Below the pieces are notes generated by a model, which saw only the letters and a program-made list of their open reading frames with translations, did no database searches and was not told where the DNA came from. From contig SYLX01000231.1 of the NCBI GenBank assembly GCA_005808505.1, forward strand, positions 1 through 64,000: DNA of 64,000 nt, given 5' to 3'. The DNA is from Bdellovibrionales bacterium. Its GTDB lineage: Bacteria > Bdellovibrionota > Bdellovibrionia > Bdellovibrionales > JAMPXM01. A program made the translations under genes and the position numbers. Positions 13,701-38,057 of the stretch are shown piece by piece (position 1 is the stretch's first letter; each line of letters starts with the position of its first letter).

Positions 13701-13926
13701 CGGCGACCGACGCGAGTTCGTCTTCAAGCGGTTTCGAAATCTGAGTTTCAATTTCTTGGGGTCCGGCGCCAGGATACGTCGTGCGGACCGTGACAACCGG
13801 GATCGTGACATCTGGAAAAAGATCGACAGGCAGTTTCGTAAGACTGATGTAACCAACGATCAACATCAACACGACGACGCAGCTGATGAAGATGGGTCGC
13901 TTGATCGAGAGCGATGCTAAATTCAC
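10756..13926 (-). CDS. RND-family efflux transporter, HAE1/AcrB type
   Basis: 1056 aa; typical start (MNLASLSIKRPIFISCVVVLMLIVGYISLTKLPVDLFPDVTIPVVTVRTTYPGAGPQEIE), conserved TM4 region. Confidence 0.93.
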   Translation of the reverse strand: MNLASLSIKRPIFISCVVVLMLIVGYISLTKLPVDLFPDVTIPVVTVRTTYPGAGPQEIETQISKPLEDELASVAGIEALRSENREGVSQIIVEFDLKVDVKYAEQQIRDRVAAARNRLPDDIEEPIIRSVDPADQPILVVALNADLPDGELYDVANEVVKPRLTQVDKVGQLDILGGRKREIQVQLDRGALRAREISANQVVQVIGSAGKNIPVGKIDKGPKETVFRSVGEYRDLETVASTIVRFAGNENPISIHQLGDVVDTLQDEASRTFVDGKKSLLLYIFRQSKANTIAVVDALKAKIEVINEEIKDQPGKPRLAIVRDGAARISANVYDVEESIIIGIILTVVVVYFFLGSGRSTIITGLALPNSLLGAFILMAVAGFSVNIMSLLALSLAVGLLIDDAIVVRENIFRHIEMGKTAHQAALVGTTEVTLAVVATTFAILAVFGPIGFLQGIVGQYLKEFGLTICFAMLISLFDALTIAPMMSAYLGGKHAHGHVPKKQFFLFRWNTKMLKAFDRFQTMLENGYERILHWVLRWPLTVIFANILIFVFSLSLGKYIPKTFIPAQDNGEVQINLDLPPGTSLTAMAELGHKVDEVVRKNPEVRQSVLTIGNRNGEANAAEIFINMVPAKQRTMNTSQFKDKLRVQLKPYAFANPQVGDGGQQGGQGRPFSVNIKGADLKQIEDISSQLLAKIKKHPSLKDVDTSFRPGKPEIQVDIDRNRAEQLGVQTAVLGSELRVQVQGETPAIFRVADREYDVRVRMLEDQRDLRKSFATMMIPNINGNLVPLSAVAKPISTTGPATILRENRSRYIQISADVAPDGPGMGGAITEVNRLMKEEIKPPLGVTFSFEGQAKRFGELIVNMLVAMGLGILFIYLVLASLYESPITPFAIMLVFPLAICGALIALFITRQSLDLFSMIGCVMLLGLATKNSILLVDYANERMHEGKSRAEAIIEAGRTRLRPILMTSFALIAGMVPVAVGLNEASKQRTSLGVAIIGGTISSTLLTLVVVPAAFSYIDRFREWVNHYFFKYIGSRADDAAATSHEMPPASGK

Positions 13927-13949
13927 GGATTCAAATCCTTATCTGATTC

Positions 13950-15422: not shown

Positions 15423-16339
15423 TACTGAAAGCCCCCTAAGATGCCGGCCACGATGTTTGATTTTTGGATGTCGAATTGAGTCGAAGCATTTTGGACAGGA
15501 ATGCGGTAATCGTATCCTGCGTACGCCGTCCATCGGTCAAAGAACTTGCGCTCGAAAGTCGCGCCTACGCTCGCGAAACGCACGGTGCCCGACATCGACG
15601 CAAATGCGGAATTCGATGATTGAGTCACGAGAAGTTGACCGTAGCCCAAAAGACCCCGCACGCCCCAAAGTGATGAAGCAGATGGTGACCAACCTAGCTC
15701 TGCACCGGCTTGAGTTTTGAGCGAGTGGAGCTCGGTGTTCTCGATCGCAAGACCGGTCGGACTCGTGAGGTTAACGCGATGTTGAGCGTAACCAACCGAG
15801 CCGAAAAGCCCGAAGCTTGCGGCACCCTTCATTTCAAAATCGAGCGGGAGCCAACGCAGTTCAAGCGCGAGCATTGGTTTTGCCGAAAGGCCGTCGAGTT
15901 CGTAGGGCGTGAGTGTCGGAAGTTCAACTCGTCCCATGGGCTGATACATCTGCGCCGATAAACCGATCTCGAAAAGTTTCGCTCCGAGAGGATTTTGAAC
16001 CGGCTCGATTTTCGAGAGCACCGTCGCGGGCGTTGGTAAAACATCTCGAGATCGCGCATCGGCGGGAATGATGAGTTCCGTTTGTGCCGCATCAGCCGTG
16101 GGCTTTTCGGGCGCCGCAGGTTTTGCCTTTGCAGCTCGCGCTTTCTTTCGCTCCACCGATGCTTCAGGCCCCGTTCCTTGTCGACGAATGATCTTCGTCT
16201 TCGACGAAGTTTGCGAAGTCGTTTGAGCTTCGACCGAGTTGATTCCAATGACGACAAAGAGACTAAGAAGGACCGATTGGGCGACCCGAGTTGAAATTCG
16301 AGTCACTCGACCTGAAGAGATGCTCAGCGCCACGTTCAT
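15422..16339 (-). CDS. Outer membrane beta-barrel protein, unknown function
   Basis: 305 aa, signal sequence, Lys/Ala/Pro-rich linker, alternating C-terminal strands ending in F-Q. Confidence 0.6.
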   Translation of the reverse strand: MNVALSISSGRVTRISTRVAQSVLLSLFVVIGINSVEAQTTSQTSSKTKIIRRQGTGPEASVERKKARAAKAKPAAPEKPTADAAQTELIIPADARSRDVLPTPATVLSKIEPVQNPLGAKLFEIGLSAQMYQPMGRVELPTLTPYELDGLSAKPMLALELRWLPLDFEMKGAASFGLFGSVGYAQHRVNLTSPTGLAIENTELHSLKTQAGAELGWSPSASSLWGVRGLLGYGQLLVTQSSNSAFASMSGTVRFASVGATFERKFFDRWTAYAGYDYRIPVQNASTQFDIQKSNIVAGILGGFQ

Positions 16340-21504: not shown

Positions 21505-22506
21505 ATGGAAATTTCCGTATTTATCAATAGCCGCGCCGGCCGCGCGGACCGGGAACTCATTGAAAAAGCGGTGCGCACGGCGCTCTTTCGTTGCAAGCTT
21601 CGTTTTCTCACGCCGACGAGCATTCCAGAGCTTCAAGCAAACGTTTTAGAGGAAGCAAAGACCGCCGACGCGTTGATGATCTGCGGCGGCGACGGCACAT
21701 TAAACGCCGCCCTCCAGCCGCTCTTAAGCGCGCGCGAGACGTTTGAACGTTTTCCGACGATCTGCCCTCTTCCCGTCGGCACGGCGAACGATTTCGCCCA
21801 AGAGCTCGGAATCGGTCACCGCATCGAACGAGCCGCGCGCCTTGTTCTTGAGGGTGAAATCCAAGACGTAGATGTCTTGCAAGTGACTTCGGGTAATAAC
21901 GAGGCCTTCATGCTGACCAACGGTGGGCTCGGAGTTCCTGCCGAAACGGCTGATCTCGTAAATCGGTTCCGCAAGTGGCTTGTCGAAACTTCGGAATGCG
22001 ATGATGTTAAAGCTCACTGGCGCCCGGTGCTTCAGCTCGGAAAACACGCGGTGAAAAAAGCGGGCTCACGGATTTACGAGCTGACACTCGCGGGGAAGTT
22101 GACCCAGTGGTCGATTAACGATTGGAAAGTCGAAGTCGAAATCCCTGGGCAAACGATCCTCACGACTCACGCACCGTTCATCATGATCAATAATCAAAAG
22201 GTCCTCGGAGCCAATTACCAAGCGGCCCCTCTGACGGCGAACAACGACGGCACGTTTAACATCATGCTCGTGACCGCCCTCACGTTGGCTGATCAAGCGA
22301 AAACGCTGATGAAGATTCGCAAGGGCGAAATCCCGAGCGAAATGGATTGTCCCCGCTTCGAGGCTTCGGAATGCACGATTCGTCGTCGCGGCGTGCGGCC
22401 CCTGACATTCTTCGGTGATGGCGAAATTCTCCACCGCGAGGTTGAAGAAGTTCATGTCCGCTGTTTGCACCGCGCGCTTCCAGTCTTTGTAAGAGGTGCG
22501 GCGTGA
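21505..22506 (+). CDS. Diacylglycerol/lipid kinase family protein (YegS/DAGK catalytic domain)
   Basis: MEISVFINSRAGRADR, MICGGDGTLNAAL, LPVGTANDFAQELGI motifs; start ATG 21505. Confidence 0.9.
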   Translation: MEISVFINSRAGRADRELIEKAVRTALFRCKLRFLTPTSIPELQANVLEEAKTADALMICGGDGTLNAALQPLLSARETFERFPTICPLPVGTANDFAQELGIGHRIERAARLVLEGEIQDVDVLQVTSGNNEAFMLTNGGLGVPAETADLVNRFRKWLVETSECDDVKAHWRPVLQLGKHAVKKAGSRIYELTLAGKLTQWSINDWKVEVEIPGQTILTTHAPFIMINNQKVLGANYQAAPLTANNDGTFNIMLVTALTLADQAKTLMKIRKGEIPSEMDCPRFEASECTIRRRGVRPLTFFGDGEILHREVEEVHVRCLHRALPVFVRGAA

Positions 22507-23528
22507 AGCGTCTTCAAATTCTCGTAACGGGCGGAACAGGTTTCCTTGGTAAATACGTGATGCCTCTTCTCGCTGCGGACTCTTCGGTGCACGCGACGGG
22601 ACTTTCACGTTCGCAACCCGAAACTCTCCGTGGTGATCTCACGAAGTGGGACGGCGGAATCGATGCTTCAAGTCTGCGCGGTGCCTTCGATGTTCTGCTG
22701 CACATGGCTGGACATTACGATTTGCGCGCGACGCAAGAAGAAGCATTTCTTCACAACATCGCCGGCACTCACAACGCGCTTTCGCTCGCGCAGAAGGCGG
22801 AGATTCCGCACATCGTCCACATCTCGACGGTTGCCGTGACGATGAGTCGATCAGGACAGCGCAAACCCCTTGGCCCTGAGGAACTCGACGTGATCGGCGA
22901 TTGGCCGGACGCCTACGCTGAAAGTAAAGCGCACGCGGAAAAAATCGTGCGGAGTTGGGACTCGATACACTTTAAATCTCGGTTGATTCTCCGCCTCGGA
23001 GTTCTCACTGGCGACACGCAAGGCGGCGCGATCCCGCGCATCGATGGGCCGTATCACACGGTCGAAAGCTTTCAGCGATTGCGAAAGTTCATCGAAAAAA
23101 TTCCGGGCCCCGTCCCACTGCCGGGTCGCCGTGGTCGACGACTTCCGATGGTTCCCGTAGATCGTGCGGCTGAAGCGATTGTGTCGCTTCTCCTCCGCTC
23201 GCGGAAAGAAAAATGGGAAGGTACCAAAAGCCTTTACGTCGTGAGCGATCGAGGTCCCACGGCCGAAGAACTTTTTCGTTCAACCTTCCGGCACATCGGC
23301 CTTCCTCGCGATGTGCAACTTCTTTCGGAACTCCCCTACGGCCTGGTGAAGTCCGCGGCAGAAAAGCTTACCGGTTTGCCTGCAGAGGAGCTTGAATACG
23401 TTTTGCGTTTCCCTCGGTTTGACTTAAGCGAAACCCGGAGCCTTTTGGGCGCGGAATGGTGCCCGGAGTTCTCTGACTACGAAGCTGCATTCTGGAGAGG
23501 CTATGAGTCGTACGTACAGAATCGCTGA
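22503..23528 (+). CDS. Extended SDR: NAD(P)-dependent epimerase / thioester-reductase-like protein
   Basis: ILVTGGTGFLGKYV Rossmann motif and YAESKAHAEKIV (YxxxK); GTG start overlapping the preceding stop. Confidence 0.85.
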   Translation: MKRLQILVTGGTGFLGKYVMPLLAADSSVHATGLSRSQPETLRGDLTKWDGGIDASSLRGAFDVLLHMAGHYDLRATQEEAFLHNIAGTHNALSLAQKAEIPHIVHISTVAVTMSRSGQRKPLGPEELDVIGDWPDAYAESKAHAEKIVRSWDSIHFKSRLILRLGVLTGDTQGGAIPRIDGPYHTVESFQRLRKFIEKIPGPVPLPGRRGRRLPMVPVDRAAEAIVSLLLRSRKEKWEGTKSLYVVSDRGPTAEELFRSTFRHIGLPRDVQLLSELPYGLVKSAAEKLTGLPAEELEYVLRFPRFDLSETRSLLGAEWCPEFSDYEAAFWRGYESYVQNR

Positions 23529-25650
23529 GCTTTCATTCGGCTCCAGCCGCTGGGATTCTTCTTACTCCTTCGACATCCACATCGATCGCTTCGAGGTGCA
23601 GCGCTTTGGCTGCGAATTCTCGGTGCCGATGGTGAAGTCTTTGATTCAAAGTCTTCGCTCGCAAGTTGATGCGTTTGCGATTACGTCTCTACCGAAAGAA
23701 ATTCGTTTCGATGATCGCACTTACGTCCACCGCCAAACCCTCGAAGTCATGTCGACGCCGTCGAGCGTTCCGATCTGTAGCGGCGAGCGATTGAAGGAGC
23801 TTGCGAACATCAATGGTCTCTCGCTTGCGATCAAAGAGAAGCGCATTGTACCGCAGGACGGAATTTATTTTCCGTTAGGACTCTTGAATCTTGAGTGTGC
23901 GAAGTTTCTCCACGAAAAACACAACGCGCGTTTACTGTATGGCGATCTCGCTTCGCTCTTTGGAATCCCGGTCATCGCGGATCCGCACTCGAAGATTCTC
24001 GCGGCGGTAAAATTTGGTTTGCACGCGGCGAACCTCACGGATCTCAAGAAGCTGGCACCGGGCCAGTCCTCGCGAGCGCGACGCTACATGGGAGCTGCGA
24101 GCTCTCTCGTTTCACTTCGCGACGTGCGCCACATCTTCGTGGACCTGCCGGTACTCTTGCTTTTTGAGCCCGCCCTTGAATTTGTGCGCGGAAAAGACAT
24201 CATCGTTCCGTACTCGCATCCGCGCATGGAAGAAGCTCTCGCTCCTTATAAACCGGCGTCTATTCAGAGCTTGTTCCCCGAGAATTTTAAATGGATTCAT
24301 CCCTACCTGAATTACTCAGTATTGGATGCGGCCTTGCGACTTTCGAACGGCGTGGATGCGCCTCTTTCGCTCGAAGCGTGGGAAGAGTTGCTCCAGACGA
24401 AGACGGAAGTCACGCAGGCGACGAAGCGCTACATTTTGGGTGCTCGTCCCTCAACCCAAGTGAAGGTCACCCAACGCGTTCGCAAATTCACTCGTCGAAT
24501 CAACGCGGAACGCGAACCCGATTTCGCATTCGTGGTTCATTGCCTTTCGTATGATCACCTCTTCCGCGCGCCCGTCGTGGGACCGCTTTTAAAGCGCGCA
24601 CCTCCGGAGTGGAACCCCGTCATTGAGAAGAACATCGCCAAACTTCCCGGCATCGTCTACGGACGTGCAAGTGGAATCGTGAGCCGCAAAACCGGCCGCG
24701 AAACGACCGGAATTTTGTACGGTCTTTTCGCGACTCCGAAGATCATGCGCGAAGAACCGCCGGAAGTGACGTACGAAAAGATTGAGAAGCTGTGCTATCA
24801 CGCAGCTGAACAAGGTGCGAAGATCATCGGACTCGGCGCATACACAAAAGTTGTGGGTGATGCGGGCGCCACGATCAATCGCAATAGTCCGATCCCGGTC
24901 ACCACAGGGAATTCTTTGTCGGCGTCCGCCACCCTTTGGGCTTTGTACGAAGCCGTGAAGAAAATGGATTTGCTCGTGCGCGATCCCGAGTCGGGCCGCT
25001 TCGACGCTACGGCGTGCGTGATTGGTGCGACGGGTTCCATCGGAAAAGTTTCGGCAAAGCTCTTGAGCATGGACTACAAGCGGCTTTGTTTAGTGGCTCC
25101 TCGCATGGAGCGGTTGCTCGAATTGAAAGCTGAGATCGAAATTCTGTCGCCCGGCTGCGAAGTCACCGTCTCTACAAAAGCAAACGACGTTGCCGCTGGC
25201 ATCGACGTTTTGGTCACAACGACTTCAGCTTTTGATCAGAAGATCGTGGACGTCGAACAGCTGAAGCCTGGGTGCGTCGTCTGCGATTGCTCGCGGCCGT
25301 TGGATTTTACTTTGGAAGATGCGATTAAGCGCCCCGACATCTTGATCATCGAGTCTGGCGAAGTGATTTTGCCTGGCTCCGGCCGGCAGTTCAACTGTGA
25401 CCTGGGACTTCCCGGTAACGTCGTGTTTGCGTGTCTCGGCGAGACGGCGTTGTTGTCGATGGAGGGCTTGCACGAACCGTTCACACTCGGACGAGAAATC
25501 GAGTGGTCGAAGGTTCGACGCATCGACCACCTTGCGCGCGAACATGGAGTGGAGCTCGCGGCGATCACGGGCCTGCACGGCCTGATTACCGACAAAGAAA
25601 TTGCGCTCACCCGAAAACTTGCGCTCGAACGCCGCCGTCGTGCGGGTTGA
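23503..25650 (+). CDS. Large dehydrogenase: C-terminal long-chain acyl-ACP reductase (AAR/COG5322)-like domain plus ~340-aa N-terminal domain of unknown function
   Basis: 715 aa; LGAYTKVVGDAG...VTTGNSLSASATLWAL, ACVIGATGSIGKVSAKLL, VFACLGETALLSMEG match the layout of cyanobacterial AAR as I remember it. Confidence 0.75.
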   Translation: MSRTYRIAELSFGSSRWDSSYSFDIHIDRFEVQRFGCEFSVPMVKSLIQSLRSQVDAFAITSLPKEIRFDDRTYVHRQTLEVMSTPSSVPICSGERLKELANINGLSLAIKEKRIVPQDGIYFPLGLLNLECAKFLHEKHNARLLYGDLASLFGIPVIADPHSKILAAVKFGLHAANLTDLKKLAPGQSSRARRYMGAASSLVSLRDVRHIFVDLPVLLLFEPALEFVRGKDIIVPYSHPRMEEALAPYKPASIQSLFPENFKWIHPYLNYSVLDAALRLSNGVDAPLSLEAWEELLQTKTEVTQATKRYILGARPSTQVKVTQRVRKFTRRINAEREPDFAFVVHCLSYDHLFRAPVVGPLLKRAPPEWNPVIEKNIAKLPGIVYGRASGIVSRKTGRETTGILYGLFATPKIMREEPPEVTYEKIEKLCYHAAEQGAKIIGLGAYTKVVGDAGATINRNSPIPVTTGNSLSASATLWALYEAVKKMDLLVRDPESGRFDATACVIGATGSIGKVSAKLLSMDYKRLCLVAPRMERLLELKAEIEILSPGCEVTVSTKANDVAAGIDVLVTTTSAFDQKIVDVEQLKPGCVVCDCSRPLDFTLEDAIKRPDILIIESGEVILPGSGRQFNCDLGLPGNVVFACLGETALLSMEGLHEPFTLGREIEWSKVRRIDHLAREHGVELAAITGLHGLITDKEIALTRKLALERRRRAG

Positions 25651-25702
25651 GGATTCGGGCCGGGGCGTGGTTTCGGGGTTATGATTGCGCGTCGCATCCC
25701 GG

Positions 25703-25721
25703 AAAGGTGCCAGGCACCTTT
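25703..25721. repeat. Small palindrome AAAGGTGCC-A-GGCACCTTT
   Basis: Perfect 9-bp inverted repeat between convergent genes. Confidence 0.7.
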
Positions 25722-25744
25722 TCGCGGGCCCCCAGCCCCAACGC

Positions 25745-26971
25745 TCAACTCCGCAACAACTCTGGAATCGACTTCCGCACAAGCCGCACGATCGGGATCA
25801 ACGACGCGATCACCGTCGTCACCGCAGGCAAGAGCAAAGCTTGCAGATAGTGTTGCCCTTGGATCTCCAAGAAGATCCGGAACTCGCGTGTGATCCCGGG
25901 TCCGGGCGGCATCGGGATGCCGCTGCGGAAGGCGAGGCGATCCAAGAGAACCGCGATCACAATCCCGACAATGCCACCCGCCACGCCAAGAAACGCGCTC
26001 TCACACAACAAAATGCGGAACAAACGACCGCGGCTCTCACCGTTTGCGCGCAATGCACCGACTTCGCCCGCGCGCTCGAGAAGTCCGACAGCAATCGTGT
26101 TGAAGATCCCAAGCGCCACGATCAAAAGCATGATCGAGCGAATGAAGCTGAATTGACTCTCCAGGAACTTCACCGCGTTTTTGTAGTAGACCGCATCGAG
26201 GTCATCGAACGGTTTCGCGTCAAGCTCCGGAAGAGCCGCGGTGATCGCCGCGTGCGCAGTCGGCCACGCCTCAACGCCGCTCGTCTGAATCGCGAAGTGC
26301 TCAACGCGATCCGTATCTAAAAGGCTTTGCGCACGATCAAGATCAATGCGGAAGAAGGAGTCATCAAACTCTTTCGAACCCGTATGAAAGATCCCGCGAA
26401 CCGTGAGCTCTAGGCCGTTCATCTGACCATGAACGGTCTGCCCAAGCACAGTGACGAGGTCCCCAACTTTCAATCCCAAACTCTCCGCCAATCCGCGACC
26501 GAGGATGATCTCGTCGGAACCCTCCGCGGAGCCTTCAAGATCACTTCCGGAGATGAAGTTCATCGCCGTGAAAAACGTGCGCTCGCGATTGGGGAGAATG
26601 CCCTCACCACGACCGGCGAGCGTAAGGCCACCCTTCATGAGGAAGGCGTAAAAACTCAAACGCGGAAAGACTTCAATAACTTGGCCGGTCGCCTTCAACT
26701 TCTTCTCGACGTCTTCCCGACCCGAGATCCAAGTCTTCCACGGCTCCTCAGTCTTTTTATCGTAGTAGCCCTTGGGAAAAACATAACCATGGCCGTAGCG
26801 GACACGAATCGTGTTCTCGCGGTACTGGTTCATGATGCCTTCGTTGAAGCCTTGATAAATCAAAAGTCCCGCGGCGCCGAGCGCTACAGTGAGAAGGCTT
26901 GCCGCCGTTCGACGTGGATTCCGAAAGAGATTGCGCCAGGCGAGGAGAACAAGCGTCGTAAGTGAATTCAT
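25745..26971 (-). CDS. ABC transporter permease, FtsX/LolE/MacB type
   Basis: 408 aa; AWRNLFRNPRRTAASLLTVALG N-terminus, large periplasmic domain, ERAGEVGALRANGESR coupling region. Confidence 0.88.
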   Translation of the reverse strand: MNSLTTLVLLAWRNLFRNPRRTAASLLTVALGAAGLLIYQGFNEGIMNQYRENTIRVRYGHGYVFPKGYYDKKTEEPWKTWISGREDVEKKLKATGQVIEVFPRLSFYAFLMKGGLTLAGRGEGILPNRERTFFTAMNFISGSDLEGSAEGSDEIILGRGLAESLGLKVGDLVTVLGQTVHGQMNGLELTVRGIFHTGSKEFDDSFFRIDLDRAQSLLDTDRVEHFAIQTSGVEAWPTAHAAITAALPELDAKPFDDLDAVYYKNAVKFLESQFSFIRSIMLLIVALGIFNTIAVGLLERAGEVGALRANGESRGRLFRILLCESAFLGVAGGIVGIVIAVLLDRLAFRSGIPMPPGPGITREFRIFLEIQGQHYLQALLLPAVTTVIASLIPIVRLVRKSIPELLRS

Positions 26972-27654
26972 GTCGACGCTCCTTTCTCCAAGAGACCATC
27001 CCGAAGTGTGAACAAAGTTTCCGCGTACGAAACGAGGTGCGTATCGTGGGTCGAAAAGATGAAACTCACGCCTTCTTTTTTCTGAAGATCTTTGAAGACG
27101 CCAATGATTGTTTCGCTCGTTGCGCGATCCAAATTCGCTGTGGGCTCGTCAGCAAGAATGACCTTCGGTCGTTTTGCCAATGCACGTGCGATCGCAACTC
27201 GTTGTCGTTGTCCGCCTGAAAGCTCACCCGGTCTCTTGTGTCTGTGTTCAAAGAGCCCAAGCTTCGCGAGAGTTTCTTCTCCACGAGCCAACGCTTCTTT
27301 CTTCGACAGACCGAGCGGGCCGAGAAAATAGGTTGTGTTCTCAAGCGCTGAGAGTGTCGGAATCAAATAGAAAGCTTGGAAAACGAAACCGAGATCCGCA
27401 AGCCGCATCGACTGAAGATCGTTCTCACCGAGTGCACTTACGTCGCGCCCTAGAAATTCAATCTTCCCGGCGTGCGGCTGATCGAGAAGCCCGAGCAAGT
27501 TGAGCAAGGTCGTCTTACCACTTCCCGATGGACCTACGAGGCAAACGAAGGAGTTCTGTGGTACCGACAAAGTGACACCTTTTAAAACCGGGACTTTCGT
27601 TTTCCCCCAGTCGTATCCGTATCCAAGTGAACTGATTTTGTAGAGTTCCGTCAT
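26968..27654 (-). CDS. ABC transporter ATP-binding protein, LolD/MacB type
   Basis: Walker A GPSGSGKTTLLNLLG, signature LSGGQRQRVAIARAL, Walker B VILADEPTANLD; start ATG 27654 (MTELYKISSLGYGYD). Confidence 0.92.
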   Translation of the reverse strand: MTELYKISSLGYGYDWGKTKVPVLKGVTLSVPQNSFVCLVGPSGSGKTTLLNLLGLLDQPHAGKIEFLGRDVSALGENDLQSMRLADLGFVFQAFYLIPTLSALENTTYFLGPLGLSKKEALARGEETLAKLGLFEHRHKRPGELSGGQRQRVAIARALAKRPKVILADEPTANLDRATSETIIGVFKDLQKKEGVSFIFSTHDTHLVSYAETLFTLRDGLLEKGAST

Positions 27655-27789
27655 CCTAGACCTCGGGACGAAGAGGAAGGCAAAAAGCAGGTACAGTTTA
27701 GGGCGGTGATCTCCGAAACACGAGTCGAGTTTCTCACTCGAAGCTTCGCAACGATGCGGAAGACTTGTAGAATCAGGCCTTGAAGGAGC

Positions 27790-28545
27790 TTGAGCCAAAT
27801 GAATATGCAATTCGCAGTTACGCCCATGGGATTCCTCATCTGCAGCGCAATTGCCACGGCGCTCGCTTCCAGCTTCATACCCGAAGCCTCGCTCGCCGGC
27901 AAAAGCAACGGCGAACAGATGCTCGCGAAAGCCGACCATATCCGCAATCCCTCAAGTTCCTACCGCATGCGCATTGGCGTAAAAAGCGAAGACGATGAAC
28001 GCGAATTTGACGTCTTTCTCAAAGGCACCGACAAGACCTTGATCGTGGCTAAAGAGCCAGCCCGCATGCGCGGACAAAACATGCTCATGCTCGATCGCGA
28101 CTTCTACGCTTACGTTCCGAACTTGAAGAAATCTCTTCGCCTGAGTCTGTCGCAGAAGATGATGGGACTTGTCGCTAACGGCGACATCGCGCGAACACGC
28201 TGGTCAGGCGATTACACCGTTTTCGTTGAAAAGGGCGACGCCAAAGAAACGCAGATGCTCCTAAACGGCACGAAGAAGAATCTCACTTACCAAAAAATTC
28301 GTCTCTGGCTAGACACCTCAACGTCACGACCTCTTCGCGCGGAATACCTTTCACTCAATGGTAAAGCCGTTTTGAAAAAAGCGGCTTTTGAGGAATACAA
28401 AACTCTCGCGGGAAGCCAACGCCCCAGCCGCATTCGTATCGAAGACGCCGGCGGCAAACAGAGCACGATCGTGATTCAAGATATGGAATCGAGCGATCTC
28501 GACGAGAGCACCTTCACGCTCGCGAATTTAGAGAAAGCAAAGTAA
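27790..28545 (+). CDS. Outer membrane lipoprotein-sorting (LolA-like, COG2834) protein
   Basis: 251 aa, signal peptide; DVFLKGTDKTLIVAKEPARMRGQNMLMLDRDFYAYVPNLKKSLRLSLSQKMMG is typical of this family. Confidence 0.8.
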   Translation: MSQMNMQFAVTPMGFLICSAIATALASSFIPEASLAGKSNGEQMLAKADHIRNPSSSYRMRIGVKSEDDEREFDVFLKGTDKTLIVAKEPARMRGQNMLMLDRDFYAYVPNLKKSLRLSLSQKMMGLVANGDIARTRWSGDYTVFVEKGDAKETQMLLNGTKKNLTYQKIRLWLDTSTSRPLRAEYLSLNGKAVLKKAAFEEYKTLAGSQRPSRIRIEDAGGKQSTIVIQDMESSDLDESTFTLANLEKAK

Positions 28546-29675
28546 TGCGCATTTGGGGGTCAGCCGTCACGCTCACCTCCTTGCTTTTTGCGACCGCACA
28601 TCCGTGTCTCACCTGGGCGCAATCGACTTCAGCCAAAAAGAGAAATCCTTGGGAAGTCTCGGCCGTGCTGAACCCGCGACTCACGGCACTTCAAGCCAAC
28701 GAAGGCGAGTTTTCTCGCGCGACGTTTCTTAAGTCTTCGCTCACCGCAAAAAAGGGCGGCTTCGGATTGTTCGCCGAAGGATTTGTAGAACACGATTTTG
28801 CGGAGTGGGACAAACAACCAACAGCGCTCGCATTACCCGAGCTCCGCAAATCGCGGGACACGGGTTACCTCCAAGAAGCTTATCTCGAGTATCAATACTC
28901 GCGCGTATCGATTCGCGCAGGTCGCCAGTCCGTGCGCTGGAGTCAGTCGTGGACCCTTCCGTCACTTGATGTGTTCACCGCGAGAAGATGGAACCGGCTC
29001 TTTCTTGATCCGTTACCTGAGCAGCTCGTACATTCGGATGGTGTACTCCTCAGCTACGCGGCGTCCGACATCGAGGCCGATCTCTTTCAAGTGATTCAGC
29101 CAGCGGAGAACTCTTTTCCCGAACCTCTCCCGAACGAAACACGCAAGCCCGAAGCGCAAACCGGCGCGCGGATCAAAGCGCGCGTAAAGGGCTTTGACGT
29201 CATGCTCATGGGACGAATCAAGCCGAACGAAGTTCTAGGCGGAGCCGCCCTTAGCTACGCGCTTGATTGTTGCGTTCTCAAAGTTGAAGGCGGCAAAGTC
29301 GAAGCCAGCAAAGGATTTTTCATCGCGGGTGTCGATGTCTTCCTAGGAGATTTCTCGTTTCAACCGCAAGCGACTTGGTTTCAAGATCCCGTGCTCACAA
29401 ACAAGGATATCGAAACGATCTTGTACGCCCCCCTTCGCTATACTTGGGGCCGCACGACGTTCGAGGCTCAATACTTCCGTTACATCGAACGCGAGGATCA
29501 ATTTGCTTCGGCCTTGATCAGCCGAGATCTTGGCGAGTGGGCGAAGAGTTCTTTCAAAATTTCAGCATTCATTCAAAACTACGAAGGTCGCGACGACCGA
29601 CTCTTTGGCATCTACCGATTGCAGACAAGCGGAACGGTCGGCGGCATCTCGCTCGACATCCTAACGTCGTTATAA
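28545..29675 (+). CDS. Outer membrane porin-like protein (DUF1302-like layout)
   Basis: 376 aa; signal peptide, VSIRAGRQSVRWSQSWTLPSLDVFTARRW, beta-strand pattern; TAATG overlap with the preceding gene. Confidence 0.65.
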   Translation: MRIWGSAVTLTSLLFATAHPCLTWAQSTSAKKRNPWEVSAVLNPRLTALQANEGEFSRATFLKSSLTAKKGGFGLFAEGFVEHDFAEWDKQPTALALPELRKSRDTGYLQEAYLEYQYSRVSIRAGRQSVRWSQSWTLPSLDVFTARRWNRLFLDPLPEQLVHSDGVLLSYAASDIEADLFQVIQPAENSFPEPLPNETRKPEAQTGARIKARVKGFDVMLMGRIKPNEVLGGAALSYALDCCVLKVEGGKVEASKGFFIAGVDVFLGDFSFQPQATWFQDPVLTNKDIETILYAPLRYTWGRTTFEAQYFRYIEREDQFASALISRDLGEWAKSSFKISAFIQNYEGRDDRLFGIYRLQTSGTVGGISLDILTSL

Positions 29676-29685
29676 CGAGGGAAAA

Positions 29686-30777
29686 ATGGCGTACTTCGAA
29701 GGCCTTAACTATTCACTCTCAAACGAAGACACCCGCATCGAACACACGTTACTACCGGAGGGCGCGGAGCGCGTTTTCTCGATTTGCGGCTCGGGCGCAC
29801 GTGTACTCCCCTTGGTTGCGAAAAACCCCATGCGCCTTGATTGCGTTGATCTCTCGCGGGAGCAGCTTCTCCTGTGCGAATTGCGCCTCGCCGCTGCCAA
29901 AGCTCTTTCGAACGAAGAGTATCTTTTCTTCCTCGGATACCGCGGCGGAGTTTTCTCAAACTCTGTAGTGGCGGACAAGCGTTCAACCCTCTTTGATCGA
30001 TTAAAACTTTCCCCCGAAGCCCATCAATTCTGGGCCGAGAGACGCCAAGGCTGGGAGCCGCGTGGTTTCATTTTCTTGGGAAAGTGGGAATCCCATTTTC
30101 AAAACTTGGGAAAGATCTTTCGCAATATCCTTCGGCTCGATATGCGGCCGATCTTCGAAGCCCACAGTCTCGATGAGCAACGAAGACTCTTCGAGAAGCA
30201 CTGGAAGCCTCGCGTATTCGCTACCTTCTTAAAAGTCGCGGCGAGCGAATACGTCTTCAACAAGTTTCTTTATAAAGGGCATTTCTCGGGCGCAACCGAA
30301 TCACGTACCGAGGCTCGCTCCCCGTCTACATTCATTGAAGAAGAGTTCACCCGCATCTTCAAAACTACCCTCGTTCGCAAGAACTACTTTATGCAAATTC
30401 TCTTCCTCGGCGGCATCTACTACGAAGAAGGCCTGCCGATCGAAGCGCAACCGATGTGTCTGGATAAAGTCCGCAGCTCAAAGACAGAGGTGAGTTTCTT
30501 GACCGAAAACCTCATTGAAGTTTTGAAGCGAGAAACTTACGACTTCGTCTCGCTTTCGGACACGATCTCGTATCTGCCGCATGACCTTGCGAGTTCGATT
30601 CTGCAACTGTTACCCGCAAATACGAAATCCGGCGCGCAGATGATCATTCGATCGTTTTTGCGTAAACCTCCGGGCTTGAACACCGAAGGATGGCGCGAGG
30701 AAATCGAGCTCAACGAGTGGGCAAAGAAGCTCGACACCACGGCCGTCTACGATTTCGATATCTTCTCAAAACTTTGA
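29686..30777 (+). CDS. DUF3419 family protein (BtaA-like SAM:diacylglycerol 3-amino-3-carboxypropyltransferase-like)
   Basis: AERVFSICGSGARVLPLVAKNPMRLDCVDLSREQLLLCELRLAAAKAL SAM-binding layout and a C-terminal DFVSLSDTISYLP segment. Confidence 0.75.
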   Translation: MAYFEGLNYSLSNEDTRIEHTLLPEGAERVFSICGSGARVLPLVAKNPMRLDCVDLSREQLLLCELRLAAAKALSNEEYLFFLGYRGGVFSNSVVADKRSTLFDRLKLSPEAHQFWAERRQGWEPRGFIFLGKWESHFQNLGKIFRNILRLDMRPIFEAHSLDEQRRLFEKHWKPRVFATFLKVAASEYVFNKFLYKGHFSGATESRTEARSPSTFIEEEFTRIFKTTLVRKNYFMQILFLGGIYYEEGLPIEAQPMCLDKVRSSKTEVSFLTENLIEVLKRETYDFVSLSDTISYLPHDLASSILQLLPANTKSGAQMIIRSFLRKPPGLNTEGWREEIELNEWAKKLDTTAVYDFDIFSKL

Positions 30778-30792
30778 TTTCGAAGCCCTGGA

Positions 30793-31836
30793 TCAGAGCA
30801 GCTTAGAAAATAGCGTGTACTCGTGCTCCCAGAGGAGGCTTCCTTTTTTCGCAAAGGATTCACTCTGGGCGCCGGTTTTTACGAGCGCGGTGATGTATTT
30901 GTTCACACCTTTTTTGAGAGCCTTTTCGGCCGCAAGGTACGCCACCGCATTAGAGATACCTTTGCCGCGAGCTTGCGGAACTACAGCTGTACTCTTGAGT
31001 ACAAGGTGCCCCTGATCTTCGTAGCAGAAGAAAAAGCCAACGCCTTTGCCGTCTTTATCGAACGCGATGTGCGAGAGCGAAAGATCAGATTTCCCGGCGA
31101 TAGGAACGTAGAGGGCGCGGAAGACTTCAAACGGAATTGGCTCGAACAGAAAATTGTCCTTAAAGCCTTGGCTGCTGATTTCGTAAAGAACTGGAACATC
31201 CTTCTCGAGGAACTGAATTGGTTCCACCGTGCGGAAGGTGTATCCCGCAGCTAGCGCCCCGTCATAAGCAGGTTTTGTCTTCGCCGCGAACGCATCGAGT
31301 TCGCCGTGCGCTTTGGTGGCGTAAAGTTCGCATGTTTCGTAACCAGCGGACTTCCAGATGTCGACGTATTCCGGAGGGTTCACCGGCTCCCAGCCAAAAA
31401 ATAAATCTTGTTTATCAATATTTTGCGAGGTGCGGAATCGATACGGGAACCAAGTGTTGAAGTTCATCGGACCGTAAGCTGTCTTAACACCTTTAGCTTT
31501 GAGCCACGATTCGGCCGCTTCGAGCAATTTACCTCCCGCTTCAATGCCGGCGGGGGTAGTCAGGTCACATTCAAAAAATCCGATGGCGCCTTCGTCCGCC
31601 TTCGTTGCGGAAACGTTTGCGCCGATGCGTCCCAACGCGCGACCGAGATCGTCTTCAACGATCCAGAATTCTTTTGCAAACTTCGTTGGCTGACAAATAA
31701 AGCCGATCCACACGGGAAAAGGAAGAAGACCCGTGCGGTACGGAGCTTGACGTACACCCTCCTGAAGCTTCGAGAATGAAGTCAAAAACCGATCGAAGTC
31801 AGCGCCGGCAAGATTTGAAAAACACTTCAGCCGCAT
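30793..31836 (-). CDS. GNAT-type N-acetyltransferase
   Basis: 347 aa; LVLKSTAVVPQARGKGISNAVAYLAAEKAL acyl-CoA binding motif. Confidence 0.75.
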   Translation of the reverse strand: MRLKCFSNLAGADFDRFLTSFSKLQEGVRQAPYRTGLLPFPVWIGFICQPTKFAKEFWIVEDDLGRALGRIGANVSATKADEGAIGFFECDLTTPAGIEAGGKLLEAAESWLKAKGVKTAYGPMNFNTWFPYRFRTSQNIDKQDLFFGWEPVNPPEYVDIWKSAGYETCELYATKAHGELDAFAAKTKPAYDGALAAGYTFRTVEPIQFLEKDVPVLYEISSQGFKDNFLFEPIPFEVFRALYVPIAGKSDLSLSHIAFDKDGKGVGFFFCYEDQGHLVLKSTAVVPQARGKGISNAVAYLAAEKALKKGVNKYITALVKTGAQSESFAKKGSLLWEHEYTLFSKLL

Positions 31837-31853
31837 GATCTAAAAACCCTTCT

Positions 31854-34664
31854 TTAAACCGCTTTTGTCTCGTTCGCGCCACTTGCGGCGGAAGAAACTG
31901 ACTCATCCGTTCCGAGAATGCGGACTTCACCGCGCGCACCATCAATGCGCACACGCATCCCCGTCTTGAGCTTCTTCATAAGCCCTCCGGTGATGCCCAC
32001 GATTGTGGGAAGACCCAGTTCCCGGGCGACGACCGCCGAGTGCGACAACAAGCTGCCTCGTTCGATCAAGAGCCCAGAGCACGATGGATAGAGCGGCACC
32101 CAACCTGGATCCGTACGCTCCGTCACGAGAATCTGTCCTTCAAGACCTTCCGCATCTTTGACTTCGCGTACGACGCGCACCACCCCCTCGACGACGCCGG
32201 GGCAGCAGGGTGTGCCGATCAAAACATTCGGATCGGTTGAAACCGGACGCTCAGAGCGCATGAGATCTTGTTCAACCAGAACTTGGGCGTAAGGAAGACT
32301 CACACCCACCGCTCCCGTCGTGAGGAAGCGATCAGGCGGAGGAAGACCTTTATCAAACTTTTTAAACTCTTCTTTACGAAGACGCGCGAGCGTCTTGAGA
32401 TCGATTTGAACCGTTCGTCCTTCGTTGAACGCAATCAGTTCTTCAACCGTGAGATAGAAGACATCGCGCGGCTGATCGAGAAGACCGAGGCGATAAAAGT
32501 TCTCGCCCATCGCGCGGAACAAACGGCGCGCAATTCCGAAGACTTTCGTGCGCGCAAAACGCAAGTTCTCGCGATTTCGCACGGCTTTGCGCGTTTGTTT
32601 TACGATCCAGAAATACGCATGGCGGCGTACAAACGAGAGCTTTGCACCGACCTCTTTTTCAGCTTTCGCGCGGATTTCGCGCTCACGCTCTTCCATCTTG
32701 CGGATATCGTAAGATTTCGTTTTGACGTAGCTTACGATCGACGAAATTGCGAACGCCGGATCATCGTGAAGATCGTTTTCTTCAAGCTTCAATTCATTGA
32801 TACAACGGAAGCCGTAGCGATCTAAGAAGTCGAAAATCAAAGCGCCGAATTCCGGGAACTTTCTTTTTTCGCTGAGCTCTATCCAAATCACCGAAGCGTG
32901 AGTCGAGAGGAACCACTCGCGAACAGGCCCGCCGGTTTGATCGATCTTCTCCGCGATTCGCATGAGCGTCTTTGTTGGCTCGGTGCTCTCGAGATCTCCC
33001 TCACCACAGAGTAAGTCGTTTTGAAGAGATGAGCCCACGTCACCGCTCGCAACCCACTTCTCCGTGAGCTTCTTCAAAACACCAAAGAAGACCATGCAAA
33101 GATAGTCGTTGATAATCGGCGCCTGCCACTTCTTTAGAAGCTGCTCTTCAAGCTCGTGATAGCTCTCGATCTGTTGGCTCAAAGAAAGAGCTTTAAAATC
33201 GCGCTTACGTGCAGCTTCGTAGACGTTTAAAAAGTGCGACTGGAATCCGCCCACGATCGAATCGATGCGACGAAAACGCGAGAGCGTTTGGAAGCCTAAT
33301 CCAATCTTGTGAGCAACGCTGTACCGAGGCGGATTTTTTACGAATTCAAAAAGTCCCGCGATTTGTTGCGCAACATCGGGACGGAGCCCTTGTCGCACGC
33401 CCATCATCGTCTCCATGAAACCTTTATTGGAGGACGAGCCTGGCAACATCAAAACGAGTTTGTACCAGTTGATGAGGTTGTAATAAACGCGGCCGCGGAT
33501 GAGACCGAGCATATTGCGGAACATCGGTTCCCGCTCTTCGATGAGAGACGCCGGAACGCCCATGACTTGGCAAAACTGGATGTAAACTTGGCGGTAAGCG
33601 CGGCTTGCAAACGAAAAAGTGAGCGGGGTTGTGACTCCGCTATAGCTCTCCACGATGTTCGAGTTATCCCAAAGAATCGGTTCAGCGCCGCGCACGGAAT
33701 CGAGATAAAATAGATCGGGCGGCAGATTCGTGATCGCGCGCGTTTGTACGCAATAGAGCTTCCCGGCCTCGAATGCCCACTCTAAATCCTGCGGAGCACC
33801 TAACTTTTCTTCGAGGAGCAACGCAAGCTTTGCGACTTCGACGACTTGCTGGTCCGTGAGGGATGAGACCTTTGCATGCTCGGCAGTTACTTTTACAACG
33901 TGAAGTCCGCCTTCAGGAGCCTGGCGAAAAGATTCCGATTTTTCAAGGATCTCGGCTTTGATCGCCATCGAGGATCGATCGACATCGTAGGTATCGGCAT
34001 CGAGAGCGCCACTGACGAGACCCTCACCTAAGCCGTAAACGGAGCTGATGAGGAGACTCTGCCGATCCAGCGACCGAATCGGATTTCGTGAGAAGGCGAC
34101 GCCGCTGGATTCCGCATTGACCATTTTTTGAATGACCACACCCACGTGGATCGGCCACAGCGGCAGCCCACGCTCCAGGCGATAACTGAGCGCGCGCTCG
34201 CTGAAACCAGAAGCCCAGCATTTTTTCAGAGAGAATAAAATTTCGGATTTCGATTTTTGAAAGAGATAGCTTGAGAACTGACCTGCAAATGAGTTTTCGG
34301 CTGAGTCCTCATCAAGTCCACTTGAGCGGACGGCAACGAAATGGTCATCGAGCCCGAGTCGCTTGAGCTCAGATTCGATGGCTTGCGAGACCTCGGGACT
34401 GACCGAACAGCCCACGATTCTTTTTTCAGCTTCTTGCGAGAACGAGCGAAGTCTTTCGGGCGTGATCTCGCCTTCCGTGATCGAAGCGAGGAAATCCTCG
34501 ATCATGTTGCCTTTGATGAATCGGGCCATCGCTTCACTCGAAACGCAGAACCACGCCGGCACCGGTGCTCCCAAACGCGCAAGGTGTGCCATATTGCGGG
34601 CTTTCCCGCCCCCTAGGAGCGAGAAAGACTCGATCGAGTCATCGGATTTCAAGATGAAATTCAT
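31854..34664 (-). CDS. PEP-synthase/rifampin-phosphotransferase-like enzyme (PPDK-N ATP-grasp plus mobile His domain)
   Basis: 936 aa; GGGKARNMAHLARLGAPVPAWFCV, FAVRSSGLDEDSAENSFAGQFSSYL, LLSHSAVVARELGLPTIVGI. Confidence 0.85.
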   Translation of the reverse strand: MNFILKSDDSIESFSLLGGGKARNMAHLARLGAPVPAWFCVSSEAMARFIKGNMIEDFLASITEGEITPERLRSFSQEAEKRIVGCSVSPEVSQAIESELKRLGLDDHFVAVRSSGLDEDSAENSFAGQFSSYLFQKSKSEILFSLKKCWASGFSERALSYRLERGLPLWPIHVGVVIQKMVNAESSGVAFSRNPIRSLDRQSLLISSVYGLGEGLVSGALDADTYDVDRSSMAIKAEILEKSESFRQAPEGGLHVVKVTAEHAKVSSLTDQQVVEVAKLALLLEEKLGAPQDLEWAFEAGKLYCVQTRAITNLPPDLFYLDSVRGAEPILWDNSNIVESYSGVTTPLTFSFASRAYRQVYIQFCQVMGVPASLIEEREPMFRNMLGLIRGRVYYNLINWYKLVLMLPGSSSNKGFMETMMGVRQGLRPDVAQQIAGLFEFVKNPPRYSVAHKIGLGFQTLSRFRRIDSIVGGFQSHFLNVYEAARKRDFKALSLSQQIESYHELEEQLLKKWQAPIINDYLCMVFFGVLKKLTEKWVASGDVGSSLQNDLLCGEGDLESTEPTKTLMRIAEKIDQTGGPVREWFLSTHASVIWIELSEKRKFPEFGALIFDFLDRYGFRCINELKLEENDLHDDPAFAISSIVSYVKTKSYDIRKMEEREREIRAKAEKEVGAKLSFVRRHAYFWIVKQTRKAVRNRENLRFARTKVFGIARRLFRAMGENFYRLGLLDQPRDVFYLTVEELIAFNEGRTVQIDLKTLARLRKEEFKKFDKGLPPPDRFLTTGAVGVSLPYAQVLVEQDLMRSERPVSTDPNVLIGTPCCPGVVEGVVRVVREVKDAEGLEGQILVTERTDPGWVPLYPSCSGLLIERGSLLSHSAVVARELGLPTIVGITGGLMKKLKTGMRVRIDGARGEVRILGTDESVSSAASGANETKAV

Positions 34665-34706
34665 GTTGCGTTTCCTGTCGGCAGTTCTTATTTGGCGTTC
34701 GGGCTG

Positions 34707-35564
34707 TCAACGCAACAAGCCGAGCCAATACGAAAACGCGATTCCCCATATGTGGAAGAGAAGCGAAAGGGTCGCGAGTCCTTCTGTTAGCTTGAAGGCA
34801 GATGGCGACTTGAACAAGCGAATTGCGCTCACCAAAACCAAGACTTCGGCCCACCACATCCAGAGACCTAGCCCTAAGCCTTGCGCGCCGATCGCCGCGA
34901 CGGCGTTGCAAACTAACAAAATCAGAAACACTTTTCTGATGCCGTACACGGCGAGGTACGTCCGCTGGAGTTCGTGGGCGGAGGGATCAAGCTTTCGCGA
35001 GACTTCGTAAGAGAAAAACGCGCCTAAAACTGCGAGTGCGAAAAACCACGCCGCAGCGGCCGATGGGGCTTGCGCCGAATGACAACTCACCGCAAATAGG
35101 CAAACGGGAACCAATATGAGTTGGTGCGAAATGGCGTAAAGGAGAGGACGTTTCGCTAGCCACTCCCCTAAACAAAATTCCTTGTACATCAGCCATAGCC
35201 AGACCGTGACGATGGCAAGCAATACACCTGCGGTGACGGACGTGATCAAACTCACAACGAGCGCATAAGTGAAAAGAGCTGTGGTGAATATAGGTATCTG
35301 CTTCGCCACTCTCTTCGCATCTAGAACGCCCCGAGGAAGCGGTCGCTCCGGATGAACGATCAAATCTTTTTCGTAATCTTTGAGTTCATCCATCAGGCGC
35401 AGGATGAAAAAGAAACCCAATAAACCAAAGAAGGTCAGAGCACTTGGTCCGACGCGAAAGCCAGGTGCGGCTAAGAAATTTCCGGAAAGGCTGATACCAC
35501 CGACAAGAAGGGCATAGACCGGGAGAGGAAAACGTTCTTTGATGTAAATCAGCCAGCTTGCCAT
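34707..35564 (-). CDS. UbiA-family prenyltransferase-like membrane protein
   Basis: 285 aa, multiple TM; first Asp-rich motif RLMDELKDYEKDLIVHPERPLPRG. Confidence 0.82.
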   Translation of the reverse strand: MASWLIYIKERFPLPVYALLVGGISLSGNFLAAPGFRVGPSALTFFGLLGFFFILRLMDELKDYEKDLIVHPERPLPRGVLDAKRVAKQIPIFTTALFTYALVVSLITSVTAGVLLAIVTVWLWLMYKEFCLGEWLAKRPLLYAISHQLILVPVCLFAVSCHSAQAPSAAAAWFFALAVLGAFFSYEVSRKLDPSAHELQRTYLAVYGIRKVFLILLVCNAVAAIGAQGLGLGLWMWWAEVLVLVSAIRLFKSPSAFKLTEGLATLSLLFHIWGIAFSYWLGLLR

Positions 35565-36982
35565 GGTTTCCTCGTTTTTGCCGAAGCCGCCCGGTCAATG
35601 CGGGCGCGGTGTCGTCGGTCACGCTGAATTTCAACTTCAAACAGTCGACTCGAAGCCTCGAGCGCTAAAAGTTTTTCGACTTCTTTACGTTTAGCACGAT
35701 CAATATCAACACAGATCTCGAATCGCCCGTCGGTCTCGATGACGAACGCTTTGCTTGATCCGAGGAGCGAGTAAACTTTTTGCTCAAGGTCAAAGCTCCT
35801 TGGGCTTTGCCCCGATCGCCCCGCGTACCACCACCCGCTCTCATCGGTCCGCACGCGGTCGCCCATGGAGTGCCACACGCGGCCCTCGGCGTCTTTTCGT
35901 TTGTGAAGGCGGTTTTCTTCTTCCCCACCGATGTAGAGCGGACAAACGTGAGGCCCCGCAACCCAGAGATTATCAGCTTCGATCTTCGCACTTATCGCGG
36001 AGACCGGTTGACCAAGCGAAAGAGCTTGGAAGTAGCCACGATCCCGCGAGCGACGAACGGATTCGCGTGCATCGATGAGACTCACCGGCTCCGCTTCGCT
36101 TGAGCCGTAGATGTGAACGACTTCGGATTCCGGGAAATGTTGAAACGCGTTTTCAAAAATCCAACAATCCGTGAGGGCACCACCTACGTGAATCGACTCT
36201 AAACTCGGCAAACGGCAGGTCTGCATGAGCTTGAGTAGAAACGCAGGCCCACAGGTGAGCGACTCCGGACGCAAATCTTTCGGAAGACTCTCAAGCCAAC
36301 GTAGATCTTTATTTCTCCATTTCGGTGGAACAAGAATCGTTCCCCGCCCCGACGCCAAATTCGCGAGTGCAAAATTCGCGAAGATGCAGAGATCTGGGCC
36401 CGCATGATCCTCGAGATGAAGCGCACTCGAGAGGATGCGGTGTTGCTCGATCATGTATCCCTGGCCGCGCACGACGCCTTTGGGCTCGCCCGTCGTTCCG
36501 CTCGTGAAGGTCAGAATGCCAGGAGTTTCCGGAGCGACTCTGATGATTTCAAGAGGAGAGTTCGTTTCGCCATCGATAGAGCTTGCGTGAAGCCATTTGG
36601 GAATCTCGCGCGCCGCCTTTAGCCGCGCGCCCCAAAGCCAGCCGAGCGTCGCCGCCGAAAAGATCTTTGGCTTTGCGAGACGCAGAACCTTATTGATTCG
36701 CTCAACCGGCATCCACGGCTCAACGAGAACCGCCGTTGCTCCCGTCGCTAAAATTCCAATGACAGATGCATACAGGCGAGGACTCAGATGATCGATCAAT
36801 AGAACCGAGTCGCCAGGCGCAAGGCCTGCGCGTCGGTATACGGCTTGTGCGTAGGATCCCCGTTTTAAAAGTTCACCAAAAGAAACGCCTTCGGAAAACG
36901 GCAGCTGAATGGCCATCTTCTCCGGGTGTTCCTGTGCATGCTGCTTGAAGAGTTCGACCGCATTCAGAACTGCTTTTTGCAC
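35549..36982 (-). CDS. AMP-dependent synthetase/ligase (acyl-adenylate forming)
   Basis: GTG start; LTFTSGTTGEPKGVVR, HIYGSSEAEPVS, MGDRVRTDESGWWYAGR motifs. Confidence 0.88.
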   Translation of the reverse strand: MQKAVLNAVELFKQHAQEHPEKMAIQLPFSEGVSFGELLKRGSYAQAVYRRAGLAPGDSVLLIDHLSPRLYASVIGILATGATAVLVEPWMPVERINKVLRLAKPKIFSAATLGWLWGARLKAAREIPKWLHASSIDGETNSPLEIIRVAPETPGILTFTSGTTGEPKGVVRGQGYMIEQHRILSSALHLEDHAGPDLCIFANFALANLASGRGTILVPPKWRNKDLRWLESLPKDLRPESLTCGPAFLLKLMQTCRLPSLESIHVGGALTDCWIFENAFQHFPESEVVHIYGSSEAEPVSLIDARESVRRSRDRGYFQALSLGQPVSAISAKIEADNLWVAGPHVCPLYIGGEEENRLHKRKDAEGRVWHSMGDRVRTDESGWWYAGRSGQSPRSFDLEQKVYSLLGSSKAFVIETDGRFEICVDIDRAKRKEVEKLLALEASSRLFEVEIQRDRRHRARIDRAASAKTRKPWQAG

Positions 36983-37286: not shown

Positions 37287-38057
37287 TTGATTATGCGTAA
37301 GCCGAAACGAAATTGGAGCCTGGCTACTGTCGTGGCGACTACTTTGATGGCCGCCGTCGGTATCGGCGCCACGTCGACGGCCGAAGCCAAAACAGCTCGC
37401 AACTGCTTCCGCGATCACCTTCGCGACGCAATCGAAATCAACCGTGCGCGACTCCCTCTTTACGCCGAACTCACGAACTCCGAATCGATTCCAGTTTCGA
37501 TGAAGCTGATAGCGCTCGAAAAGCTCACGCTCGCGGCTTCAAAAGTGAAGTCGACCTACGGCATAGCTGTAGCTCCCTATCGGAAAGCCGGCGTCGATAT
37601 CCTCTGCGAGAATTTCGTCGATATGCGACAGATCCCTGCTTTTCACGATAGGTACGCTGCCGGCGCACCTGATCTATCGACTTTTGTGCAGCCGCATGGC
37701 TCGGATATCCGCAAGCGGATCCGCGTTGGTCTATCTAAGAAGGGTTTTCCTGGAGCGTACGCGGAAGCAGTCAAAGCTCTGCGCCAGATCGAAGACGAAC
37801 CGCGTTTCAACTGCATGTTGCGCCATACTCTCGAGTCGATCGCACGCATCGCTGCCTATGCGCCCAATCAGGAGGCGCGCGCTAAACGAAAAGGACTTCC
37901 CTCACCTGCTCGCATCTCGAAAGAGTTGATCGAGGATCACTTGATCATGCTGCGCCAGGTAATGGATTTAGATTGGAAGGCGGCATCCATCCAAGCGAGC
38001 GGAGTTCCGATCCTCTGCCAAGATGTGCCGCCAATCCAGTACTCTACTGCTCGCTAA
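37287..38057 (+). CDS. Secreted protein of unknown function
   Basis: 256 aa, signal peptide, cysteine pairs. Confidence 0.6.
   Translation: MIMRKPKRNWSLATVVATTLMAAVGIGATSTAEAKTARNCFRDHLRDAIEINRARLPLYAELTNSESIPVSMKLIALEKLTLAASKVKSTYGIAVAPYRKAGVDILCENFVDMRQIPAFHDRYAAGAPDLSTFVQPHGSDIRKRIRVGLSKKGFPGAYAEAVKALRQIEDEPRFNCMLRHTLESIARIAAYAPNQEARAKRKGLPSPARISKELIEDHLIMLRQVMDLDWKAASIQASGVPILCQDVPPIQYSTAR

Follow-up and report, generated by a model that had tools for sequence, protein, structure and literature searches.

Several described systems resemble parts of the locus reported here. In the BtaA/BtaB betaine-lipid pathway, BtaA forms diacylglyceryl-homoserine from diacylglycerol and S-adenosylmethionine (SAM) (PMC10685587), and in the cyanobacterial acyl-ACP reductase AAR, C294 is the residue that bears the acyl thioester (PMC7089970). 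The stretch analysed in this study, 64,000 nucleotides of a Bdellovibrionales genome (hereafter the window), contains at 21505-36982 a block of genes whose families recall both of these systems, as well as LolCDE-LolA-LolB, OleABCD and PEP synthase (pyruvate, water dikinase). We consider it rather probable that the block is one Bdellovibrionota-wide locus for producing an unusual, amine-bearing lipid of the envelope and for delivering it to the outer membrane.

The window belongs to a 5.0-Mb metagenome-assembled genome (MAG) that is 93% complete and 7% contaminated, and the block arrangement is also present beyond this MAG in relatives that include single-contig genomes. An earlier reading of the DNA without database searches (the sequence-only reading) had divided the interval into three operons of lipid-related families. 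All families that it named were recovered in place by Pfam/NCBIfam matches, profiles or AlphaFold2 models, but the 12 genes are arranged as four transcription units: DagK-SDR-AAR (+ strand, neighbours overlapping by 4 and 26 bp), ATPase-permease (- strand, 4-bp overlap), LolA-like-barrel-DUF3419 (+ strand, a 1-bp overlap and then a 10-bp gap), and ligase-UbiA-dikinase-GNAT (- strand). In functional terms, the locus consists of a core, a transporter and an exchangeable cassette. The conserved locus comprises these 12 genes and probably a 13th member, as follows.

21505..22506, + strand: gene 1, YegS/DagK-family lipid kinase, 333 amino acids (PF00781 (DAGK_cat), 72 bits; YegS_C)
22503..23528, + strand: gene 2, extended short-chain dehydrogenase/reductase (SDR), NAD_binding_4 / 3beta-HSD-like (family matches; YAESK motif; 4-bp overlap with gene 1)
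23503..25650, + strand: gene 3, two-domain acyl-ACP/CoA reductase (AAR and PigE-N similarity; AAR fold; C644)
25745..26971, - strand: gene 4, FtsX/MacB/LolCE-type ABC permease (PF02687, PF12704)
26968..27654, - strand: gene 5, LolD-type ABC ATPase, 228 amino acids (similarity to the LolD model; LSGGQ signature)
27799..28545, + strand: gene 6, LolA-like periplasmic lipid/lipoprotein carrier (PF17131, 116.7 bits, above the cut-off of 30)
28545..29675, + strand: gene 7, porin-like outer-membrane beta-barrel (AlphaFold2 model and Foldseek)
29686..30777, + strand: gene 8, DUF3419 protein of the BtaA family (PF11899, 182.5 bits, cut-off 28.2; GSGxR motif)
30793..31836, - strand: gene 9, GNAT-fold acyltransferase, cassette version A (PF00583)
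31854..34664, - strand: gene 10, dikinase-type phosphotransferase/ligase (PF01326 (PPDK_N) and PF00391; HSAVVARE motif)
34707..35564, - strand: gene 11, UbiA-superfamily membrane prenyltransferase-like protein (family profile match; Asp motif)
35549..36982, - strand: gene 12, AMP-binding (ANL) ligase with a short C-terminus (PF00501)
37287..38057, + strand: probable gene 13 (no Pfam/NCBIfam match; family recurs beside the cluster elsewhere)

Six proteins (AAR, DUF3419, UbiA, dikinase, permease, and barrel) were searched in the same 157 relatives. AAR, DUF3419, UbiA and dikinase were each carried by 31 relatives, the permease by 30 and the barrel by 27, and all six occurred together in 26. The genome sets of UbiA and dikinase were identical (31/31), and 30 genomes had AAR and UbiA in common. 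Across 359 Bdellovibrionota genomes, AAR was found in 108 and UbiA in 107, with both in 95; where the two lay on one contig, 65 of the 66 pairs were at most 20 kb apart. Absences were also joint: G007 lacks both AAR and UbiA though it is congeneric with the carriers G003 and G010, and both are missing from G034, G067 and G112, which belong to the same genus as many carriers. The cluster is also absent from G020 (genus g15), a 2.7-Mb genome on one contig; this size is close to that of the epibiotic predator Pseudobdellovibrio exovorus, and, as a lead only, carriage of the cluster might follow periplasmic predation. In a few genomes the cassette was present though distant, 1.17 Mb from the core in G150 and on another contig in G031, G043 and G102. 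Independent distribution of the operons, against which the sequence-only reading had staked its proposed linkage, was looked for, and the distributions proved nearly identical, even with the modules on separate contigs or 1.17 Mb from each other. Linkage of the genes well beyond chance is established. The Fisher P values across the 359 genomes (down to 1e-58) ignore relatedness, but the reductase-tree result given below does not.

The arrangement of the genes points the same way. Among relatives in two families the whole block recurs with its order permuted, and its flanks are mostly not kept. Modules of all three operons of the sequence-only reading share same-strand runs in other species: by gene number, the runs are 1-2-3-8-12-11-10-5-4 in locus L134 (core, cassette and ABC pair), 1-2-3-12-11-10-9-8 in L088, and 4-6-barrel-1-2-3-8-12 in L091. 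The ligase and UbiA are fused in L076, L087, L108 and L122, and UbiA and GNAT in L059. We also scanned the reductase alignment against 84,980 species genomes. Among the best 80 of at least 440 relatives, the top relatives of the window locus were Bdellovibrionaceae/Bdellovibrionota records, the cluster was mostly present at the reductase loci of Bdellovibrio, Bacteriovorax, Halobacteriovorax and Oligoflexales MAGs, and other phyla had two-domain or AAR-only relatives without the partner genes. No earlier description of the locus was found in limited literature searches of open-access papers.

The cassette exists in two versions. Version A, present in the window, consists of ligase, UbiA, dikinase and GNAT, and version B, present in most Bdellovibrio, consists of a formyltransferase, an alpha/beta-hydrolase (often fused to the ligase), a full-length ligase, UbiA and dikinase. 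GNAT was found in 20 loci and the formyltransferase, with a conserved N-H-D triad (N132, H134, D169), in 22, while no locus had both; genome-wide, exactly one of them was present in 31/31 UbiA-positive relatives. A maximum-likelihood tree built from 48 sequences of the core reductase requires seven changes of cassette version, at least six of them forced by well-supported branches, with some long branches making single placements unsure. A pair of genomes from one genus, G055 and G047, illustrates such a change: their AAR and DUF3419 proteins are each 85% identical and their barrels 73%, but their dikinases only 44%, and the dikinase of G055 shares 66% identity with that of the window, which belongs to another family. 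The repeated replacement of the whole cassette beside the same core argues that core and cassette act on one product or pathway. Co-distribution, the unit-wise cassette swap and the mixed same-strand runs thus support the central proposal of the sequence-only reading, joint action of the operons on one unusual envelope lipid, which would be the single end product and would be exported. A terpene-oxygenase-related cytochrome P450, without a counterpart in the window, accompanies the cassette in seven loci; it lies at 8095-9789 in L056, 12909-14288 in L076 and 19673-20992 in L088, and was also seen in L092, L122 and others.

We infer the substrates and the order of steps as follows. The AAR-like enzyme would load an acyl chain from acyl carrier protein (ACP) or CoA on Cys644 and reduce it to a long-chain aldehyde. 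Gene 3 encodes an N-terminal domain (~1-335) followed by an AAR domain that carries this cysteine. The C-terminal half has the AAR fold (a Foldseek search with the whole model retrieved 6jzy and 6jzu), and C644 is invariant among 25 aligned sequences and aligns to C294 of cyanobacterial AAR. The N-terminal domain had no PDB sequence match, and the whole-model Foldseek result was dominated by the AAR half. Separate matches of ~310-330 residues in G186, G259, G325, G332 and G344 cover only this domain, suggesting that it may exist alone. The SDR, by its sequence a candidate aldehyde or keto reductase, may reduce the aldehyde to an alcohol. In Inhella (L106, 8611-13880), a related two-domain AAR adjoins an iron-containing alcohol dehydrogenase (Fe-ADH) and lies near a WS/DGAT wax-ester synthase, neighbours that support a fatty aldehyde or alcohol as the AAR product.

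The DUF3419 protein, the sole copy in the window genome, is a predicted SAM-dependent 3-amino-3-carboxypropyl transferase that would attach this SAM-derived group to the hydroxyl of a lipid, so that the headgroup would be of homoserine type and its amine free. The kinase of the DagK family, whose GGDGT motif is present in the window protein and in 58/58 orthologs, would phosphorylate a lipid intermediate. The AMP ligase, UbiA and dikinase of the exchangeable cassette would then finish the molecule, and a cassette-specific enzyme would cap the amine, putatively the one derived from DUF3419, with an acyl group (GNAT) in the window and a formyl group (formyltransferase) in version B. No methyltransferase family, and hence no BtaB-type N-methyltransferase, was recognized among the locus genes in a search that covered the locus only and not the rest of the genome. 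Because the locus is without an N-methyltransferase but has an acyl- or formyltransferase, capping of the amine fits.

The dikinase-type protein has ATP-grasp and swivelling-His domains (only PF01326 and PF00391 were matched, and not the PEP/pyruvate-binding barrel), scores 901 bits against NF004881 (cut-off 883), and by these matches has the domain layout of rifampin-phosphotransferase-like enzymes. As a single sequence the UbiA-like protein had no Pfam match, and a profile of its family picks up DGGGP synthase (6m31, E 2.8e-6), an ether-forming prenyltransferase. The first Asp-rich motif (D59-x3-D63-x3-D67) is invariant, and the second is altered and not conserved. The ligase is closest to the OleC/PRK09274 families, and its A10-like lysine is replaced by arginine in all version-A ligases compared (RHRARIDR vs RHHSKVEY in version B).

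The families of genes 4-7 are most simply read as an export route for the lipid that leads to the outer membrane: the LolCDE-like ABC pair would lift the lipid out of the inner membrane, the LolA-like protein would carry it through the periplasm, and the barrel would receive it in the outer membrane. The barrel protein had no Pfam or NCBIfam match; its AlphaFold2 model is a beta-barrel (mean pLDDT 75) for which Foldseek returned OccK, chitoporin and OmpC. In L068, L069 and L091 the neighbourhood of the LolA-like and barrel-like genes is preserved, even though the barrel sequence has diverged too far to be recognised.

Several points weigh against a single lipid pathway with its own export route. 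Prenyl transfer by the UbiA-like protein is uncertain because its second Asp motif is not conserved, and the version-A ligase may not adenylate normally because the usual A10 lysine is lost. Some genomes, including G070 and G150, gave no barrel ortholog at the sequence level, and lipoproteins could be the actual cargo of the ABC and LolA-like proteins. The co-occurrence statistics carry no phylogeny correction, the UbiA match is only weak in the AAR carrier G141, and most genomes of genus g81 carry UbiA without AAR. Since the core and a strict cassette match can part, some lineages may make variants or two linked products.

The last of these points leads to the alternative that survives best, namely that two lipid systems are co-inherited, with genes 1-8 making one lipid and the cassette a second compound, the two being neighbours because both serve the same envelope. 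The whole cassette does move separately from the core, it lies far from the core in genomes such as G150 and G031, and it is the cassette that most g81 genomes keep in the absence of AAR. However, the cassette almost never occurs without DUF3419/AAR, nor the reverse, a replacement cassette lands beside the same core, and the g81 member examined (L056) still pairs DUF3419 with the cassette. We regard two separate systems as unlikely.

The possible transport of lipoproteins raises a second alternative, a specialised lipoprotein-sorting (Lol) system in which the lipid enzymes merely adjust the membrane or the lipid anchor of lipoproteins. LolD-, LolCE- and LolA-like families are indeed in the locus, but genes 4 and 5 miss the curated equivalog cut-offs for LolCE (98 vs 362 bits) and LolD (204 vs 308 bits), the locus has a barrel and no annotated LolB-like gene, and the transporter genes are tightly tied to the lipid enzymes in all lineages. 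Such a system is improbable. Wax-ester or hydrocarbon synthesis by AAR and SDR with an OleC/OleB-like ligase and hydrolase could account for the AAR family, for the WS/DGAT beside the related AAR in L106, and for a ligase that is nearest OleC/PRK09274 and fused to an alpha/beta-hydrolase in version B. Against it, no WS/DGAT, ADO or OleA was found in the locus, the OleC cut-off was missed (77 vs 900 bits), the SDR is far below the OleD cut-off, and DUF3419 and the transporter are left unexplained, so that this explanation is very improbable. A prodigiosin-like secondary metabolite is still harder to credit: the AAR resembles PigE-N and the dikinase PigC/RedH, but the equivalog cut-offs are far from reached (PigE 152 vs 850 bits, PigC 320 vs 1300 bits) and no pyrrole-forming genes were found in the locus. 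Chance adjacency of unrelated lipid genes, which has nothing in its favour except that genes tend to cluster in general, is refuted by the co-occurrence and the repeated cassette exchange and has a negligible probability. Chance adjacency and simple synteny were also rejected because the block persists in relatives where its flanking genes do not; missed curated cut-offs or missing partners led to the rejection of canonical Lol, PEP synthase, Ole, prodigiosin and wax-ester systems as readings.

The flanking genes (HDAC, M28, ExoD, FemAB) are rarely or never beside the block in relatives. The family of probable gene 13 adjoins the cluster in nine other loci (L042, L044, L053, L069, L076, L077, L088, L092, L122) and looks secreted, because the N-terminus is hydrophobic in several members. 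Elsewhere in the window, a run on the - strand at 61-6751 encodes a TamB-like protein, an Omp85 protein and a PLDc/VTT-domain protein, a separate candidate operon for envelope lipids. The - strand at 10756-16339 encodes an AcrB-like RND efflux pump, an OEP channel and one further product that matches no Pfam family and is probably the pump adaptor.

Predatory bacteria reportedly contain unusual membrane lipids, to judge by the title of a 2011 paper by Muller et al. that PMC7529429 lists, and the envelope-lipid part of the B. bacteriovorus metabolic model is described as incomplete. In genera that serve as laboratory organisms, the locus would define a specific set of genes, open to deletion, for one such lipid. 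Two lipid versions are predicted within the genus Bdellovibrio, and the complementary cassettes offer natural strain pairs that can be compared by lipidomics without engineering. The locus is also a candidate for a lipid route of its own from the inner to the outer membrane, with a barrel at its end; for lipids other than lipopolysaccharide, this step is poorly understood.

The locus shares components with several known systems. Like the BtaA/BtaB pathway, it has a DUF3419 protein with the GSGxR motif; unlike that pathway, it has no recognized BtaB-type N-methyltransferase and contains a GNAT or formyltransferase, AAR, DagK, UbiA and a dedicated transporter. Gene 3 shares its fold and catalytic cysteine (C644 = C294 in the alignment) with cyanobacterial AAR but has an extra N-terminal domain of ~335 residues and falls far below the cut-off of the equivalog model TIGR04058 (53.3 vs 449.7 bits), and no ADO accompanies it in the locus. 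The LolCE-like permease, LolD-like ATPase and LolA-like carrier recall LolCDE-LolA-LolB, from which the locus differs by scores below the equivalog cut-offs, by a barrel in place of LolB, and by coupling to lipid enzymes. The hydrolase fusion of version B is reminiscent of OleBC, as is the ligase of OleC, but the locus has no OleA and the version-A ligase has lost its usual lysine. Gene 10 differs from PEP synthase by having no matched C-terminal PEP/pyruvate-binding barrel. As a lead only, the ceramide-phosphoglycerate genes of Caulobacter also include a DagK-family kinase, an SDR, a GNAT and an AMP ligase; no serine palmitoyltransferase was found among the window proteins scanned. We tentatively suggest, at somewhat less than even probability, that the locus defines a previously undescribed class of homoserine-headgroup envelope lipids, mainly in Bdellovibrionota. 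Such a lipid would have a chain derived from fatty aldehyde or alcohol and a decoration that is either isoprenoid or dependent on the ligase, would reach the cell surface by a LolCDE/LolA/barrel route of its own, and would occur in strain-swappable, 'serotype-like' N-acyl and N-formyl forms.

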